From NCBI GenBank assembly GCA_903863935.1, contig CAIPDV010000022.1, positions 1 through 50,002 of the forward strand: 50,002 nt of DNA. The letters run 5' to 3'. The position numbers were made by a program, and so were the translations under genes. The notes under the pieces are model-generated. The model saw only the letters and a program-made list of their open reading frames with translations, did no database searches and had not been told where the DNA came from. This document shows, one piece after another, positions 3,040 to 25,667 of this stretch; position 1 is the first letter of the stretch; each line of letters starts with the position of its first letter. Source of the DNA: an uncultured Bacteroidota bacterium (GTDB taxonomy: Bacteria; Bacteroidota; Bacteroidia; JABEUT01).

Positions 3040-3876
3040 TCACCACCAATTCGCACAGACCTGTCCCACTTTTTTAGCGTGGAAGGAGAGTATGATACCG
3101 GCAAAGGAATACCAGTCGTTTTTGCCATCGCCGCGTTGGGTGCCAATCATGCTGGCATGGTCGGTATTCAGGCTGCGATTGCTCATAGTTAAAGCCAATC
3201 CTGAGTTAGGACCTTGTTGTGCCCCCAACTGTGTAGGGTTAGGATAGAGTCCGCTTACATCGTCAATATATCCGGTAAAGGTTTTGCGCAAGCCCCACTC
3301 AATGGTAAGACACATGGTTTGCGAAAAAGATGTTTTAATACCAATACCAAAAGGTATACAGGGTTGTATTAGTTTGTAAGGGGCATCGGGATTCGATTGG
3401 GTGCCTTGTCCTTCGGTGTGCAGCGGCTGCAAAGCCACCCACTGATCGCCAATTTTACCAAAGGGTTCAAAGTGAAAAAAGCCTAATCCGCCGAAAATAA
3501 ACGGAGTGAAATTATATTTTGGATTATCGATGGAATATTCCTGGAAGTTGAATTCCATTTGTCCCGATATTTCATATACAGGCGATTTAAAATTCAGGTT
3601 CCGTTCGCGCTGAAAAGCGGAAGATGATTTGGAATCATCGGCATAAAGCGTTCCGTAAAAACCGCTAACCCTGGCCGAAAAGCGATTATTAATGTTGTAG
3701 CGGTAAATTGCACCGGCTGCAAGGCGTGTAAACTGATTGAAAAATCCGTGAGGGTTCAAATCTCCCAGGTAATAGCTGCAACCGAGGAACACCCCTATTT
3801 CAGAAGTATGCTGTTGTGCGGAAGAAGGAAAAGCCCAGCAAAAAACTGAACTAATGACAAGAAAAAATCTTTTCAT
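3040..3876 (-). CDS. DUF6089-type outer membrane beta-barrel protein
   Basis: This 278-residue protein has a signal peptide (MKRFFLVISSVFCWAFPSSAQ) followed by alternating aromatic/polar strands typical of an outer-membrane barrel. The opening HTSEIGVFLGCSYYLGDLN and the later NFTPFIFGGLGFF segment match the DUF6089 family found across Bacteroidota. No catalytic residues are apparent. It is probably an eight-stranded porin-like or structural barrel in the outer membrane. It is monocistronic and convergent with nothing nearby. The C-terminus ends in AKKVGQVCANWW, a little longer than usual, so the final residues may be out of the barrel. Confidence 0.7.
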   Translation of the reverse strand: MKRFFLVISSVFCWAFPSSAQQHTSEIGVFLGCSYYLGDLNPHGFFNQFTRLAAGAIYRYNINNRFSARVSGFYGTLYADDSKSSSAFQRERNLNFKSPVYEISGQMEFNFQEYSIDNPKYNFTPFIFGGLGFFHFEPFGKIGDQWVALQPLHTEGQGTQSNPDAPYKLIQPCIPFGIGIKTSFSQTMCLTIEWGLRKTFTGYIDDVSGLYPNPTQLGAQQGPNSGLALTMSNRSLNTDHASMIGTQRGDGKNDWYSFAGIILSFHAKKVGQVCANWW

Positions 3877-4115
3877 TTTTTGATTATCAACAGAAATAAT
3901 AGTGTACTTGTTTCCTTCCTATAGTGCAAAAGTATTAAAATTTCCGCTCTTTTGAGCTAAAGTAAGCGTTTCTAAATCCCCAAACCACCAAAGGAGCTTT
4001 AAAAGTCATTGAATTTTAATAAGTTAAATTACTTAAAGTCCGCCTAGGCGGATTAGGCTAGGTTTAATTTCATTGAATTTCCTTGCCAAACGGCATCTAA
4101 TCTTGAAATTTTATT

Positions 4116-4123
4116 TATATTTG
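4116..4123 (+). promoter_or_regulatory. -7 promoter element for nusA-infB
   Basis: TATATTTG matches the Bacteroidota TAnnTTTG -7 consensus. No well-spaced -33 TTG is visible. It leaves a leader of roughly 130 bases before nusA. Confidence 0.55.
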
Positions 4124-4258
4124 CATCGGATTTTGCGAATTAGATAGGATTCTCCCATAATTAAGTATCAGCATGGAGGGCTCAAGCGGACCTCCTTTGT
4201 TGTTTATATAACCCGCTGGAAAGATAAAAGTTGTAAGTCTTAAAAATTAAAAATAGTC
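4124..4258 (+). ncRNA. structured nusA leader with hairpin and 12-codon upstream ORF
   Basis: The leader contains a hairpin with GGAGG (4175-4179) paired to CCTCC (4191-4195), an inner GC/GC pair, and a T-rich stretch after it, so it could act as an attenuator. Inside it lies a 12-codon reading frame, ATG at 4173 to TAA at 4211, encoding MEGSSGPPLLFI. The 3' half of its hairpin is part of that frame. I see no known riboswitch consensus. Autoregulation of the nusA operon through the leader is plausible but inferred. Confidence 0.4.
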
Positions 4259-5533
4259 ATGGCAAAAAAGGCAAACGTTGCAGAGCTAAAAGAAATCACT
4301 CACTTAAATATTATTGAGTCGTTTTCGGAATTTAAGGAAATAAAAAGTATTGATAAAGCCACCCTCATGAATGTGATTGAGGATGTATTTAAAGCTATGC
4401 TGCGCAAGCGTTTCGAAACCGATGAGAACTTCGATATTATTGTAAACCCTGATAAAGGTGACGTGGAAATTTGGAGAAACCGTGTGATTGTGGAAGACGA
4501 TAAAATTGAAAATCCGAATACACAAATTGCATATTCCGAAGCTATAAAAATTGAACCCGATTTTGAAGTGGGTGAAGATGTTTCGGAGCCGGTGAACTTT
4601 ATGGACTTCAGCCGCAGGGCTATCCTTGCCGTGCGCCAGAACCTGAGTTCACGCATTTCGCAACTTGAAAAAGAAACACTCTTCAAAAAATATAAAGACA
4701 AAGAAGGCGACATCATCAGTGGTGAGGTTTACCAGATCTGGAAAAAGGAAATTCTGGTTATGGATGATGAAAGCAACGAATTAATTCTGCCACGCACCGA
4801 ACAGATACCATCCGATTTCTTTAAGAAAGGAGATACCATCCGGGCGGTAGTATTGTCAGTAGAAATGAACGGAACCAATCCGTTAATTATATTATCCCGA
4901 ACATCACCAAGCTTTTTGGAAAGATTGTTTGAAATGGAAGTACCTGAAATTTTCGACGGGCTTATTACCATTAAAAAGATTGTTCGTGAACCGGGCGAAA
5001 GAGCCAAGGTTGCTGTGGAATCGTATGATGATCGTATTGATCCTGTAGGAGCATGCGTAGGTGTTAAAGGTTCACGCATCCACGGAATTGTTCGTGAGTT
5101 GAAGAATGAAAATATTGATGTTATTAACTTCACCACCAACCCTACCCTGTTTATTACCCGTGCATTGAATCCTGCTAAGATCACTTCTATAAAAATTGAA
5201 GAAGCTACCAAGCATGCCGATGTGTATCTGAAACCTGACCAGGTGTCACTTGCTATCGGTAAGGGAGGCCACAACATCCGTTTGGCAGCTCGTTTAACAG
5301 GTTACGAAATTGATGTATACAGGGATGCAGAAAACTATACCGAAGACGTTCCGTTGGATGAATTCGGAGATGAAATTGAAGGATGGATACTCGATGCATT
5401 GAAGAGCATAGGTTGCGATACCGCTAAGAGCGTATTGGAACTCTCTGTTGAAGATTTGGCAAAGAGAACCGACCTGGAAGAAGAGACTATTAAAGAAGTA
5501 CAAAGTATTTTAAAGAAAGAATTTGAAAGCTAA
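4259..5533 (+). CDS. nusA: transcription termination/antitermination factor NusA
   Basis: NusA binds RNA polymerase and nascent RNA and controls pausing, termination and antitermination. The 424 residues show the family order: N-terminal RNAP-binding domain (1 to about 130), S1 domain (about 140-205, with GDIISGEVYQIWKKEILV), and two KH domains (about 240-370) with the GxxG loops GVKGSRI and GKGGHNIRLAA. A short helix-hairpin-helix tail follows (ALKSIGCDTAKSVLELSVEDL). Length is typical for Bacteroidota, which lack the extended acidic repeats of enterobacteria. infB follows 94 bases later. The usual upstream partner rimP is missing from this locus. The start ATG at 4259 gives the conserved N-terminus. 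Confidence 0.96.
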   Translation: MAKKANVAELKEITHLNIIESFSEFKEIKSIDKATLMNVIEDVFKAMLRKRFETDENFDIIVNPDKGDVEIWRNRVIVEDDKIENPNTQIAYSEAIKIEPDFEVGEDVSEPVNFMDFSRRAILAVRQNLSSRISQLEKETLFKKYKDKEGDIISGEVYQIWKKEILVMDDESNELILPRTEQIPSDFFKKGDTIRAVVLSVEMNGTNPLIILSRTSPSFLERLFEMEVPEIFDGLITIKKIVREPGERAKVAVESYDDRIDPVGACVGVKGSRIHGIVRELKNENIDVINFTTNPTLFITRALNPAKITSIKIEEATKHADVYLKPDQVSLAIGKGGHNIRLAARLTGYEIDVYRDAENYTEDVPLDEFGDEIEGWILDALKSIGCDTAKSVLELSVEDLAKRTDLEEETIKEVQSILKKEFES

Positions 5534-21225: not shown

Positions 21226-21669
21226 TTAACTAAAGTAAAGGTCTGATTCCGCTTTTCTCCTGGTTACTAACCCTTGCAATACCTCACCTCCGGCATGCAC
21301 CCATTTGGCAAATTCATCTGCAATGGTTGGGTCATTCGGATTTGCAATTACTTTTTTGAGGAGTGTTGAACCTTTTAATGCACTAATTCCAAGATTGTAT
21401 GCAAATGAAATTAACGCATCAAACTGGTTTTGATTTACACTTGCAGGAAGAACGGTATTGAGGATATTCTCAATAATGGTAACTGAATTCCGTAATAATA
21501 CCTCCGCCTGATCCTTCGTTATAGTAGCGGTCATAAGCCATTGCTGTGTATCCGTATGAATTAATGTCCCGTATCCAATCGTTGGCAATCCTACTGCATC
21601 TTTATACATGGTTGGCCTGAATCCTTCAAATTGCTCAATCAGTGCTACTCCTTTGCTGCTAATGTTCAT
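21226..21669 (-). CDS. GH24 lysozyme (phage-type endolysin)
   Basis: This 147-residue enzyme cleaves the beta-1,4 bond between N-acetylmuramic acid and N-acetylglucosamine. The catalytic triad of the GH24 family is visible near the N-terminus: Glu in IEQFEGFRPTMYKD, Asp in KDAVGLPTIGYG, and Thr in IGYGT. A C-terminal helical lobe (NQFDALISFAYNLGISALKGSTL) completes the fold. There is no signal peptide, so it would need a holin or other route to reach the wall. No phage structural genes surround it. It has a 52-base leader that is clearly homologous to that of the collar gene at 22077. Confidence 0.93.
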   Translation of the reverse strand: MNISSKGVALIEQFEGFRPTMYKDAVGLPTIGYGTLIHTDTQQWLMTATITKDQAEVLLRNSVTIIENILNTVLPASVNQNQFDALISFAYNLGISALKGSTLLKKVIANPNDPTIADEFAKWVHAGGEVLQGLVTRRKAESDLYFS

Positions 21670-22076: not shown

Positions 22077-22436
22077 CTATTCTTTTATAAGAAAAATAAC
22101 AAAAGAACTAGGTGGCATATTCAACTGATCATCGGTCTGAAGTGTAAACCTGGCATCTTTCCCAATTGCCATTGTGCCGGGGTGATGTTGATAAGGATCG
22201 ACATCGTAGGCTGACCCGGCAATATAATTCGCAGTTGTTCCTCCATGCGAATGAGTAGCTTTGCCGCCGGTTGGTTTGCCAAGCTTTTCAAAGTCTGTAG
22301 TACCCAGCGGAAATTTTCCGTTTAAATCCGGCCTGCCTTCTTTTCCATCACAAATCTTCCATCCTTTCGGTAATTCATTTTTTTTGCCATACCACATCAA
22401 AATTGTACCTTTCGGTAATTCGTCCATACTTGCCAT
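22077..22436 (-). CDS. phage tail collar-domain protein
   Basis: This 119-residue protein carries the tail-collar (MdpB-like) pattern: PKGTILMWYGKKNELPKGWKI, CDGKEGRPDLNGKFPLGT, a His-rich TGGKATHSHGGTT segment, and the closing MPPSSFVIFLIKE. In phages and phage-derived injection devices such domains lie at the tail-fibre or collar. Free-standing bacterial copies also exist. It has its own promoter region, leader and terminator. Its leader is homologous to that of the GH24 lysozyme, tying the two together. No other tail genes are present in the window. Confidence 0.82.
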   Translation of the reverse strand: MASMDELPKGTILMWYGKKNELPKGWKICDGKEGRPDLNGKFPLGTTDFEKLGKPTGGKATHSHGGTTANYIAGSAYDVDPYQHHPGTMAIGKDARFTLQTDDQLNMPPSSFVIFLIKE

Positions 22437-22470
22437 AATTCTTAAAATTTAATTTTGCTTACTCTCTTTA

Positions 22471-22488
22471 CGGTTTTCAGCATTCCCG
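22471..22488 (-). promoter_or_regulatory. shared leader motif, copy 1 (collar gene)
   Basis: Coding-strand sequence CGGGAATGCTGAAAACCG, 34 bases before the ATG. A -7-like GACTTTTG lies about 15 bases further upstream. The bases between motif and ATG also align with the lysozyme leader (AAA.AGAGTA.GC..AATTAA, then AGAATT next to the ATG). Confidence 0.75.
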
Positions 22489-22659
22489 TTTAATTTTCGA
22501 TGACAAAAGTCGTGTGATAGGAACCTTTTTAAAAGGGGGTATTATGCATTTCGTTCATGGGACTTTTCCCATATATAACACTCTGGTATTTAATATTGTT
22601 CTTTCTATCATAAAACCTTTTCTCCTGCTTTGCGTTAGAATAGGAAAGAGTACTCTGAT

Positions 22660-23932: not shown

Positions 23933-25333
23933 TTATCCATCCATTTTTACAATGCGAGGGTAGAAAGTACCAAGCACATCTACAAGATTTTTTTGTGCTT
24001 TCATCACTTCGTGAATATCCTTGTAAGATTGTGGGGCTTCGTCAATGTCGCCACCAATAAGGGTTACACCATTTGCTTCAAGCATGTTTTTCATGTCCTT
24101 GCGGGTGATAGTTCTAAAAGCCTGTCCCCTGGACATAGCCCTGCCGGCCCCGTGCGAAGCTGAATTTAAGGATGCCTCTTCTCCTTTTCCACGAACAATA
24201 AATCCGGGTGCAGTCATAGAGCCGGGAATAATTCCCAATACGCCTTTACCTGCGGGTGTTGCACCCTTACGGTGAACAATAACATCATTTCCATTCCATT
24301 TTTCTTTCCATGCAAAGTTGTGGTGGTTCTCAACAATTGCTAACGGTTCCAAGGCCAAAGCGGATGCAATTTTTTTATGAATGCTATGGTGACAAGCCGA
24401 TGCATAGTCTCCTGAAAGGTTCATAGCAAGCCAGTATTCCATGCCTTCTGCGGAATCTAAACTCAACCATGCCAAATGTTTTGCCTCTTGCGGAAGTCTG
24501 CATTTTTCCATGGCAATTTTGGTGTAATGATTGGCAACATTCGCACCCAATCCCCTGGAACCGGAATGAGAAAGCAATGCTAAATATTTTCCTGCCGGGA
24601 TATTTAACTCCTCTGTAGTTTCATAAATCTCCACTTCCCCAAATTCTACGAAGTGATTACCCGAACCCGAACTTCCCAATTGTTTGGATGCTTTTTGTTT
24701 AAGCCCTTTCAGCAATTCGATTTCATCAAAAATCTTGCGGTCAATAATTTCGTTTTCCTCCGCAACTTTGAATTCCCTTCCTGCTCCAAAGAGTGTATTA
24801 TCCAAAAGGATTTTATACAAACTTCTTTTATCATGAACTGTTTTATCAGGCGAAGTGGGAAAAATACTGAGGCACATTCTGCACCCAATATCAACTCCCA
24901 CTCCATATGGAATAATGGAATTCTCAGTAGCTAGTACACCGCCAATAGGTAATCCATATCCTTGATGTGCATCGGGCAATAAGGCTCCGGCAACCGTTAC
25001 AGGAAGCCTGCTTGCAATCTCCATTTGGTTGATTGCTCCTTCTTCAATGTTACCCGCTCCAAAAATATTGTATTCCTTTTTTTGTACAAGCAAAGGAATC
25101 TCGTCGTTTGCTTCTTTTGGTTTCTCAATTAATTCATAAGCGATTTTTGCAAGAACGGGGTCTTCCAAATATTCTGCCGGTTCCGAAAGAATTTTTTTCA
25201 GAATCTCCAGTGCATTTTCGAAAGAAGTATGCTTATGTGATTTATGCATTACCTGCATGGTAATACCAATAACCTTCCCTTCGGGATAACCAATGTTCCT
25301 CAAATCTTTTCCGCTTAAATTCAGTTTAGCCAT
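23933..25333 (-). CDS. rtcB: RNA-splicing ligase RtcB
   Basis: RtcB joins RNA ends with 2',3'-cyclic phosphate or 3'-phosphate to 5'-OH ends, using GTP and Mn2+, via a guanylated histidine. The 466-residue protein shows the family metal and catalytic motifs: YGVGVDIGCRMC, SGSGNHFVEFGE, LLSHSGSRGLGANVANHY, KGATPAGKGVLGIIPGSM and NSASHGAGRAMSR, whose His (about residue 393) is the expected guanylation site. It is the last gene of a minus-strand unit that begins with rsr and includes six Y-RNA-like and two tRNA-like genes. The first tRNA-like gene lies 28 bases before the ATG. No rtcA cyclase is present. An archease gene is also not in the window. Confidence 0.96.
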   Translation of the reverse strand: MAKLNLSGKDLRNIGYPEGKVIGITMQVMHKSHKHTSFENALEILKKILSEPAEYLEDPVLAKIAYELIEKPKEANDEIPLLVQKKEYNIFGAGNIEEGAINQMEIASRLPVTVAGALLPDAHQGYGLPIGGVLATENSIIPYGVGVDIGCRMCLSIFPTSPDKTVHDKRSLYKILLDNTLFGAGREFKVAEENEIIDRKIFDEIELLKGLKQKASKQLGSSGSGNHFVEFGEVEIYETTEELNIPAGKYLALLSHSGSRGLGANVANHYTKIAMEKCRLPQEAKHLAWLSLDSAEGMEYWLAMNLSGDYASACHHSIHKKIASALALEPLAIVENHHNFAWKEKWNGNDVIVHRKGATPAGKGVLGIIPGSMTAPGFIVRGKGEEASLNSASHGAGRAMSRGQAFRTITRKDMKNMLEANGVTLIGGDIDEAPQSYKDIHEVMKAQKNLVDVLGTFYPRIVKMDG

Positions 25334-25361: not shown

Positions 25362-25445
25362 TGGATGCAGAAGGATTCGAACCTCCCAAGCTTTTAGACA
25401 GCGGATTTACAGTCCGCCCCAACACTCCAACGTTGGCGTGCATCC
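25362..25445 (-). tRNA. tRNA-Tyr-like gene (anticodon GUA), non-canonical D-arm
   Basis: The fold has acceptor GGATGCA/TGCATCC, anticodon stem GCGGA/TCCGC with loop CTGTAAA, a long variable region as in bacterial tRNA-Tyr, and T-arm GGAGG/CCTTC with loop TTCGAAT. The D-arm is unusual: base 8 is C instead of the near-invariant U, and the D-stem is CCAAC/GTTGG with loop GTTGGAGT. It could be a working tRNA, a decaying copy or a mimic. The discriminator is A; CCA is not encoded. Confidence 0.75.
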
Positions 25446-25454
25446 ATATATTTG

Positions 25455-25528
25455 CGGTGCCGGACAGATTTGAACTGCCACCGCGGAGATTTTCAATCTC
25501 CCGCTCTACCCATTGGAGCTACAGCACC
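25455..25528 (-). tRNA. tRNA-Phe-like gene (anticodon GAA)
   Basis: A full cloverleaf: acceptor GGTGCTG/CGGCACC, D-stem GCTC/GAGC, anticodon stem GGAGA/TCTCC with loop TTGAAAA, T-arm GGCAG/CTGTC with loop TTCAAAT. Base 14 is C rather than A, and the discriminator is G rather than the A normal for Phe, so aminoacylation is uncertain. It lies eight bases after the last Y-RNA-like unit and nine before the Tyr-like gene. Confidence 0.82.
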
Positions 25529-25536
25529 TTATTAAA

Positions 25537-25667
25537 TTGAACGGGTAACAATGCAATAAGAGACTAATTATATGCTCTACCAACTGAGCTATCCGCCGCA
25601 GGCGGAACAGGAATTGAACCTGTGACCCCATAACCCCGAAGTAACTCTTATTTACGACACCATTCAA
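25537..25667 (-). ncRNA. Y-RNA-like unit 6, permuted tRNA opened at the anticodon
   Basis: Ends TTGAA/TTCAA pair, GGT/ACC follow, then an internal loop with GTCGTA, an eight-pair helix AATAAGAG/CTCTTATT, and TACTTCG (signature at 25637-25658). The head is a tRNA in the order T-arm (ACAGG/CCTGT, loop TTCAATT), closed acceptor hairpin TCCGCC-TGC-GGCGGA, complete D-arm GCTC-AGTTGGTA-GAGC. TATAA/TTATG acts as the anticodon stem, so the Y stem replaces the anticodon loop. Variable loop GGGTC is of normal length. Confidence 0.8.

Follow-up and report, generated by a model that had tools for sequence, protein, structure and literature searches.

The window analysed here is a 50,002-nucleotide stretch of contig CAIPDV010000022.1 from an uncultured Bacteroidota bacterium. 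It carries an RNA-repair locus in which two tRNA genes lie between a series of Y RNAs and the gene for the RNA ligase RtcB, raising the question of what tRNA genes do in an operon of this kind. An earlier note, made from the letters alone, had placed two complete cloverleaves at 25362–25528, one Phe-like with a G discriminator and C14, the other Tyr-like with C8 and a rebuilt D-arm, and Rfam scores and folding bear out this description. The features of the locus are:

23933–25333, minus strand: rtcB, encoding a 3'-phosphate RNA ligase (Pfam PF01139, E 4.9e-79)
25362–25445, minus strand: tRNA-Tyr(GTA) of a phage-type C8/G9 long-D-stem subfamily (tRNA-Sec model, subfamily pattern, covariation)
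25455–25528, minus strand: tRNA-Phe(GAA) (ARAGORN; Rfam RF00005, 55.3 bits, E 2.7e-9, cut-off 29)
25539–25658, minus strand: YrlA-like Y RNA with tRNA-like module, the closest to the tRNAs (YrlA 45.8 bits, below the Rfam cut-off of 69 bits; core 25637–25658)
25690–25800, minus strand: YrlA-like Y RNA with tRNA-like module (YrlA 26.1 bits, partial; core 25779–25800)
25845–25959, minus strand: YrlA-like Y RNA with tRNA-like module (YrlA 22.9 bits, partial; core 25929–25950)
26016–26289, minus strand: three more Y-RNA-like cores (26016–26037, 26117–26138, 26268–26289; core motif, only the cores delimited)
26386–27903, minus strand: rsr, encoding a bacterial Ro60 (TROVE) protein (Pfam PF05731, E 1.7e-31)
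28080–29192, plus strand: WYL-domain regulator, divergent from rsr (Pfam PF13280 and PF25583)

Read along the minus strand, the order is rsr, six Y-RNA cores, tRNA-Phe, tRNA-Tyr and rtcB. The core motif GNCGTA-N9-TACTTCG has six matches in the window with none expected, and a tRNA-like YrlA module, in each case scoring below the Rfam cut-off, is present in three of the six elements. No terminator-like site was found on the minus strand between rsr and rtcB, and the rtcB ATG lies 28 nt downstream of the tRNA-Tyr gene, making co-transcription from rsr through rtcB likely; promoter scans did not rise above chance. ARAGORN miscalled the Y RNA at 25845–25959 as tRNA-Arg(tcg), the call covering 25871–25959, and likewise took Y RNAs for tRNAs at one other locus (L132:9768) and at several viral loci. 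Counts of tRNAs near rsr require the removal of such miscalls, and the strand counts given below are filtered accordingly.

The adjacency of a Ro60 gene, Y RNAs (below the Rfam cut-off) and RtcB is that of an rsr-yrl-rtcBA operon. The operon's RtcB is the single RtcB match in the whole genome, the RtcA cyclase (PF01137) has no match in it, and the divergent gene encodes the WYL protein, with no RtcR sigma-54 activator adjacent to the operon.

Gathering the genome's tRNAs place by place yielded 45 matches, among them a main tRNA-Phe (L005) and a main tRNA-Tyr (L032) outside the operon, and the operon genes are therefore not the sole Phe and Tyr tRNAs of this genome. The earlier note had held that sole and fully charged copies would end the idea of tRNA mimics; the ordinary genes exist, with identities of 68% (Phe) and 64–65% (Tyr) to the operon copies. 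A degenerate pseudogene was rejected on the intact main stems and because the oddities of the Tyr gene are subfamily traits. Both genes encode the full cloverleaf of an elongator tRNA, with acceptor, D, anticodon and T stems; the discriminator agrees with isotype expectation in Tyr (A73) and differs from it in Phe (G73).

The surroundings of the block point to its acquisition. None of 10 congeneric genomes, most of them incomplete, contains rsr. Two congeners preserve an empty site, xerC, hpf and a NUDIX gene following directly on one another, and in the window the entire block is inserted between hpf and the NUDIX gene, with a GC content of 0.41 against 0.38 in the flanks. An assembly artefact or contamination is unlikely because the flanking genes adjoin in the congeners. 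The operon was acquired laterally as a single block, situated between these two genes and not in a phage or prophage. Near its flank are a phage lysozyme gene (21226–21669) and a possible tail-collar-like protein without a Pfam match (22077–22436). Rfam also matches a DUF805b cis-regulatory RNA at 22456–22490 (39 bits).

The tRNA-Phe gene combines discriminator G73 with C14 and does not encode CCA. Its sequence has A15-U48 where the host gene has G15-C48, apparently a compensated tertiary pair, and its anticodon loop differs from that of the host tRNA-Phe at position 32 only. G73 is uncommon in tRNA-Phe, occurring in one of 16 rsr-linked and two of 24 viral genes; tRNA-Phe has A73 in all four host genomes, from which the window's copy departs, and its G73 could reduce charging. 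The best same-isotype matches, which bear on a possible phage origin of this gene, reach about 70%, equally among viral and host genes. Lacking a close relative and carrying the rare G73, the Phe gene presents the weaker case for function of the two.

The tRNA-Tyr gene is called neither by ARAGORN nor, at threshold, by the general Rfam tRNA model; the Rfam tRNA-Sec model matches it with 39.1 bits (E 5e-6), below its cut-off of 47. Besides C8 it has G9, a long D-stem (CCAAC/GTTGG) and A73, and CCA is not encoded. In the single-strand fold all four stems (acceptor, D, anticodon and T) are intact, and the alignment indicates that only two of the three variable-arm pairs remain. Its anticodon loop is the same as that of the host tRNA-Tyr. 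The closest match (L338), at 86%, lies on a 336-kb viral contig.

These traits define a subfamily, delimited here by C8 G9, a CCRR..YYGG D-stem, a GTA anticodon and a long variable arm, to which the window's gene conforms in both pattern and alignment. The pattern CGCCRRMGYTGGWGDGYYGGGRC matched 69 viral contigs, the matches being tRNA-Tyr with GTA anticodon at loci with up to 30 tRNAs, and the annotated tRNA-Tyr of Microbacterium phage Cece has a D-arm identical in type. In an alignment of 33 subfamily sequences, 97.7% of pair cells hold standard pairs, falling to 37–53% in slid controls; two-sided changes occur in 19 of the 24 pairs, with covariation in all five stems. Among 395 Bacteroidia genomes the pattern was found in four (G000, G051, G093 and G295), in the first three no more than 3 kb from rsr. 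The reversed pattern, used as a control, gave no matches. The C8 and the rebuilt D-arm are thus traits of a widespread phage tRNA-Tyr subfamily and not signs of degeneration; the oddness that the earlier note implied was wrong in kind, the gene being a standard member of that subfamily.

The fourth genome, G295 (L312, L457), consists of one contig with 29 tRNAs. Its single tRNA-Tyr is of the C8 type and lies in a Thr-Tyr-Gly-Thr cluster, so that this type can serve translation, and the window's own copy may do so as well. The cluster resembles that in which the window's genome keeps its ordinary tRNA-Tyr; in G295 the phage-type gene has apparently taken over the place of the housekeeping tRNA. 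As identities between short tRNAs make no tree, a phage origin of the window's Tyr gene is likely and the direction of transfer presumptive. The C8/G9 long D-arm was also seen in rsr-linked tRNA-Cys(GCA) genes (L095:473, L115:2513, L117:6468, L124:4722), so the arm type appears to span two isotypes, Tyr and Cys.

The linkage of tRNAs to rsr extends well beyond this locus. In an even class sample of Bacteroidia, rsr is present in 18 of 395 genomes, tRNAs lie within 3 kb at eight of 15 rsr loci, and within 8 kb of rsr 92 tRNAs are co-oriented with the gene and one is opposite (about 3 expected). Within 8 kb at 80 genome-contig rsr loci plus the window, 152 are co-oriented and seven opposite (about 15 expected); the loci of this set were picked for their resemblance to the Rsr of the window, and many are from Chryseobacterium; the even sample for that reason weighs more. 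The linkage recurs at viral rsr loci, with tRNA strands at 98 to 1. An earlier mention of it would be likeliest in the work of Burroughs and Aravind from 2016 and of Chen et al. from 2014.

Such orientation bears on the suggestion that the tRNAs are neutral or selfish cargo, phage genes acquired in the lateral transfer and yet to be lost. The phage-type Tyr, the patchy occurrence and the unusual G73 and C14 of the Phe gene would fit it, but the main stems of both tRNAs are intact, co-orientation with rsr is near-total and, apart from the window, 12 groups have rsr-linked arrays, and we consider it improbable.

Larger arrays have the composition of decoding sets. One locus (L426) carries 28 tRNAs covering 20 amino acids, another (L425) 23 tRNAs with each anticodon once, and anticodons are seldom repeated among rsr-linked tRNAs in general. 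The discriminator base N73 equals the host's in 204 of 234 rsr-linked tRNAs, against a shuffled maximum of 124, while array copies compared tRNA by tRNA in two hosts are only 46–73% identical to the host genes with the same anticodon. Non-redundant sets of up to 20 isotypes, host-matching discriminators and the sole tRNA-Tyr of G295 support a role as spare tRNAs, the best supported of those that the earlier note had listed. The same evidence argues against decoys, mimics that would absorb an anticodon nuclease and thereby spare the host's tRNAs: neither a decoy nor a sensor would need complete decoding sets, although the two-gene case in the window still allows either, and a decoy type would hardly be the only tRNA-Tyr of a genome. 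The near-identity of both anticodon loops to the host's suits a decoy, competitive inhibition has been raised for YrlA by Hughes et al. (PMC7790460), and phage tRNA-Tyr has been considered as either a decoy or a supplement in the face of Septu (PMC13096335); on balance a decoy function seems a poor prospect.

Anticodon loops match the host's in 107 of 234 rsr-linked tRNAs, and C38 is commoner in rsr-linked tRNAs (60 of 238 versus 15 of 142); the loop differences and the C38 excess are no more than suggestive of anticodon-loop evasion. Evasion as in mycobacteriophage tRNAs is unsupported for the window, where the loops are identical or near-identical to the host's. Resistance of the window's tRNAs to anticodon cleavage is accordingly not evident, as the Tyr loop is that of the host and a single position, 32, sets the Phe loop apart.

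The genes around the arrays are those of RNA repair, including Rnl1-, Rnl2- and OB-fold-type RNA ligases, Thg1, RlaP and slipin. At one Bacteroidota locus (L053), a reverse polymerase of the Thg1 type (3463–4224) and an RNA ligase of the OB-fold type (4362–5363) lie directly upstream of the array. tRNA-free rsr-YrlA-rtcB loci are also numerous, and the tRNAs are for this reason optional cargo of rsr operons. This weakens the idea of processing punctuation, in which the cloverleaves would be cut by RNase P and RNase Z or E, freeing rtcB mRNA and Y RNAs. The tandem arrangement in the window, uninterrupted by a terminator and ending so close to the rtcB start, would lend itself to such processing. 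Punctuation fails, though, to explain the many operons without tRNAs or the varied, seldom repeated isotypes, and some arrays do not lie between rsr and the ligase gene at all; as the primary function it is a slim prospect, and it may well accompany a spare-tRNA role as a side effect. Least credible of all is a sensor in which cleavage products of the operon tRNAs signal to the WYL regulator: such a regulator is divergent from rsr here and present at 36 of 81 rsr loci, and cut tRNAs activate the Salmonella operon (PMC7790460), yet WYL-rsr loci without tRNAs are common and no feature marks the operon tRNAs as a source of ligand.

We therefore favour, with a probability of roughly 60%, the reading that the two tRNAs, foreign-type cargo of a laterally gained operon, are a supply of spares coupled to RNA repair. 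The operon comprises Rsr, Y RNAs, RtcB and the WYL regulator. Cutting of tRNAs by a toxin, anticodon nuclease or defence system would switch it on; RtcB would reseal cut tRNAs, Rsr and the Y RNAs would deal with damaged RNA, and the operon tRNAs would replenish the pool with copies that differ in sequence from the host's. This scheme supposes that the operon tRNAs are induced on damage, charged, used by the ribosome and able to escape the nuclease. In its favour, the genome has main Phe and Tyr genes, from which the operon copies diverge by about one third. Against it, the window has just two tRNAs, the Phe gene has G73, the Tyr variable arm has lost a pair and many operons are tRNA-free. A more general and more doubtful proposal, which we hold tentatively, is that Ro60/Y RNA and RNA ligase operons with phage-type tRNAs, up to a 20-isotype kit, form a bacterial mend-and-replace response whose tRNAs are selected for remaining uncut by the toxins and defence nucleases that cut host tRNAs.

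The linkage joins two questions, why RNA ligases accompany bacterial Ro60 and Y RNAs and why bacteria have extra tRNA arrays. It suggests that in Bacteroidota the loci for RNA repair hold replacement tRNAs as well, some belonging to a type that phages share, and, as the sets in related operons reach a complete 20, that the cell replaces cut tRNAs as well as mending them. It opens the matter to direct testing in culturable hosts such as Chryseobacterium, and establishes a tRNA-Tyr missed or poorly scored by standard tools as a real type able to serve translation.

Among known systems, the Salmonella rsr-yrlBA-rtcBA operon resembles the window's in uniting Ro60, Y RNAs and RtcB and in having a regulator in divergent orientation; the Salmonella operon responds to cut tRNAs (Hughes et al., 2020; PMC7790460). 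The sections of that report cited here describe no tRNA genes in the operon, where the window has two; the window's genome, for its part, has no RtcA, and where Salmonella has RtcR the window has a WYL protein. Phage tRNA arrays counter tRNA-cutting defences (PMC10264068, PMC11555353, PMC13096335), and in particular retron-Eco7 and Septu cut tRNA-Tyr and phage tRNA-Tyr rescues the phages (PMC11555353, PMC13096335). The subfamily of the window's Tyr gene is found in viral arrays, but unlike these the window's genes lie in a bacterial chromosome, within a repair operon and beside housekeeping xerC and hpf. The same parts list is found in jumbo phages that combine tRNAs with RtcB, Rnl ligases and TROVE proteins (PMC7824862), and tRNAs are co-oriented at viral rsr loci too. 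The genomes concerned are viral, and the cited sections of that paper do not describe a linkage of bacterial rsr to tRNA arrays. The closest demonstrated case is the trn/TrcR system of Anabaena, in which the repressor TrcR holds down a 26-tRNA operon together with rtcB and translational stress releases this second tRNA set (PMC10272220). There the tRNAs, on a plasmid, and rtcB are joined by a shared RHH repressor and not physically, and the paper's main text mentions neither Ro60 nor WYL. A second tRNA set of comparable size is present in L425 and L426 and not in the window, with its two tRNAs, and a slipin gene, which also occurs beside rsr-linked arrays, belongs to the TrcR regulon (PMC10272220).
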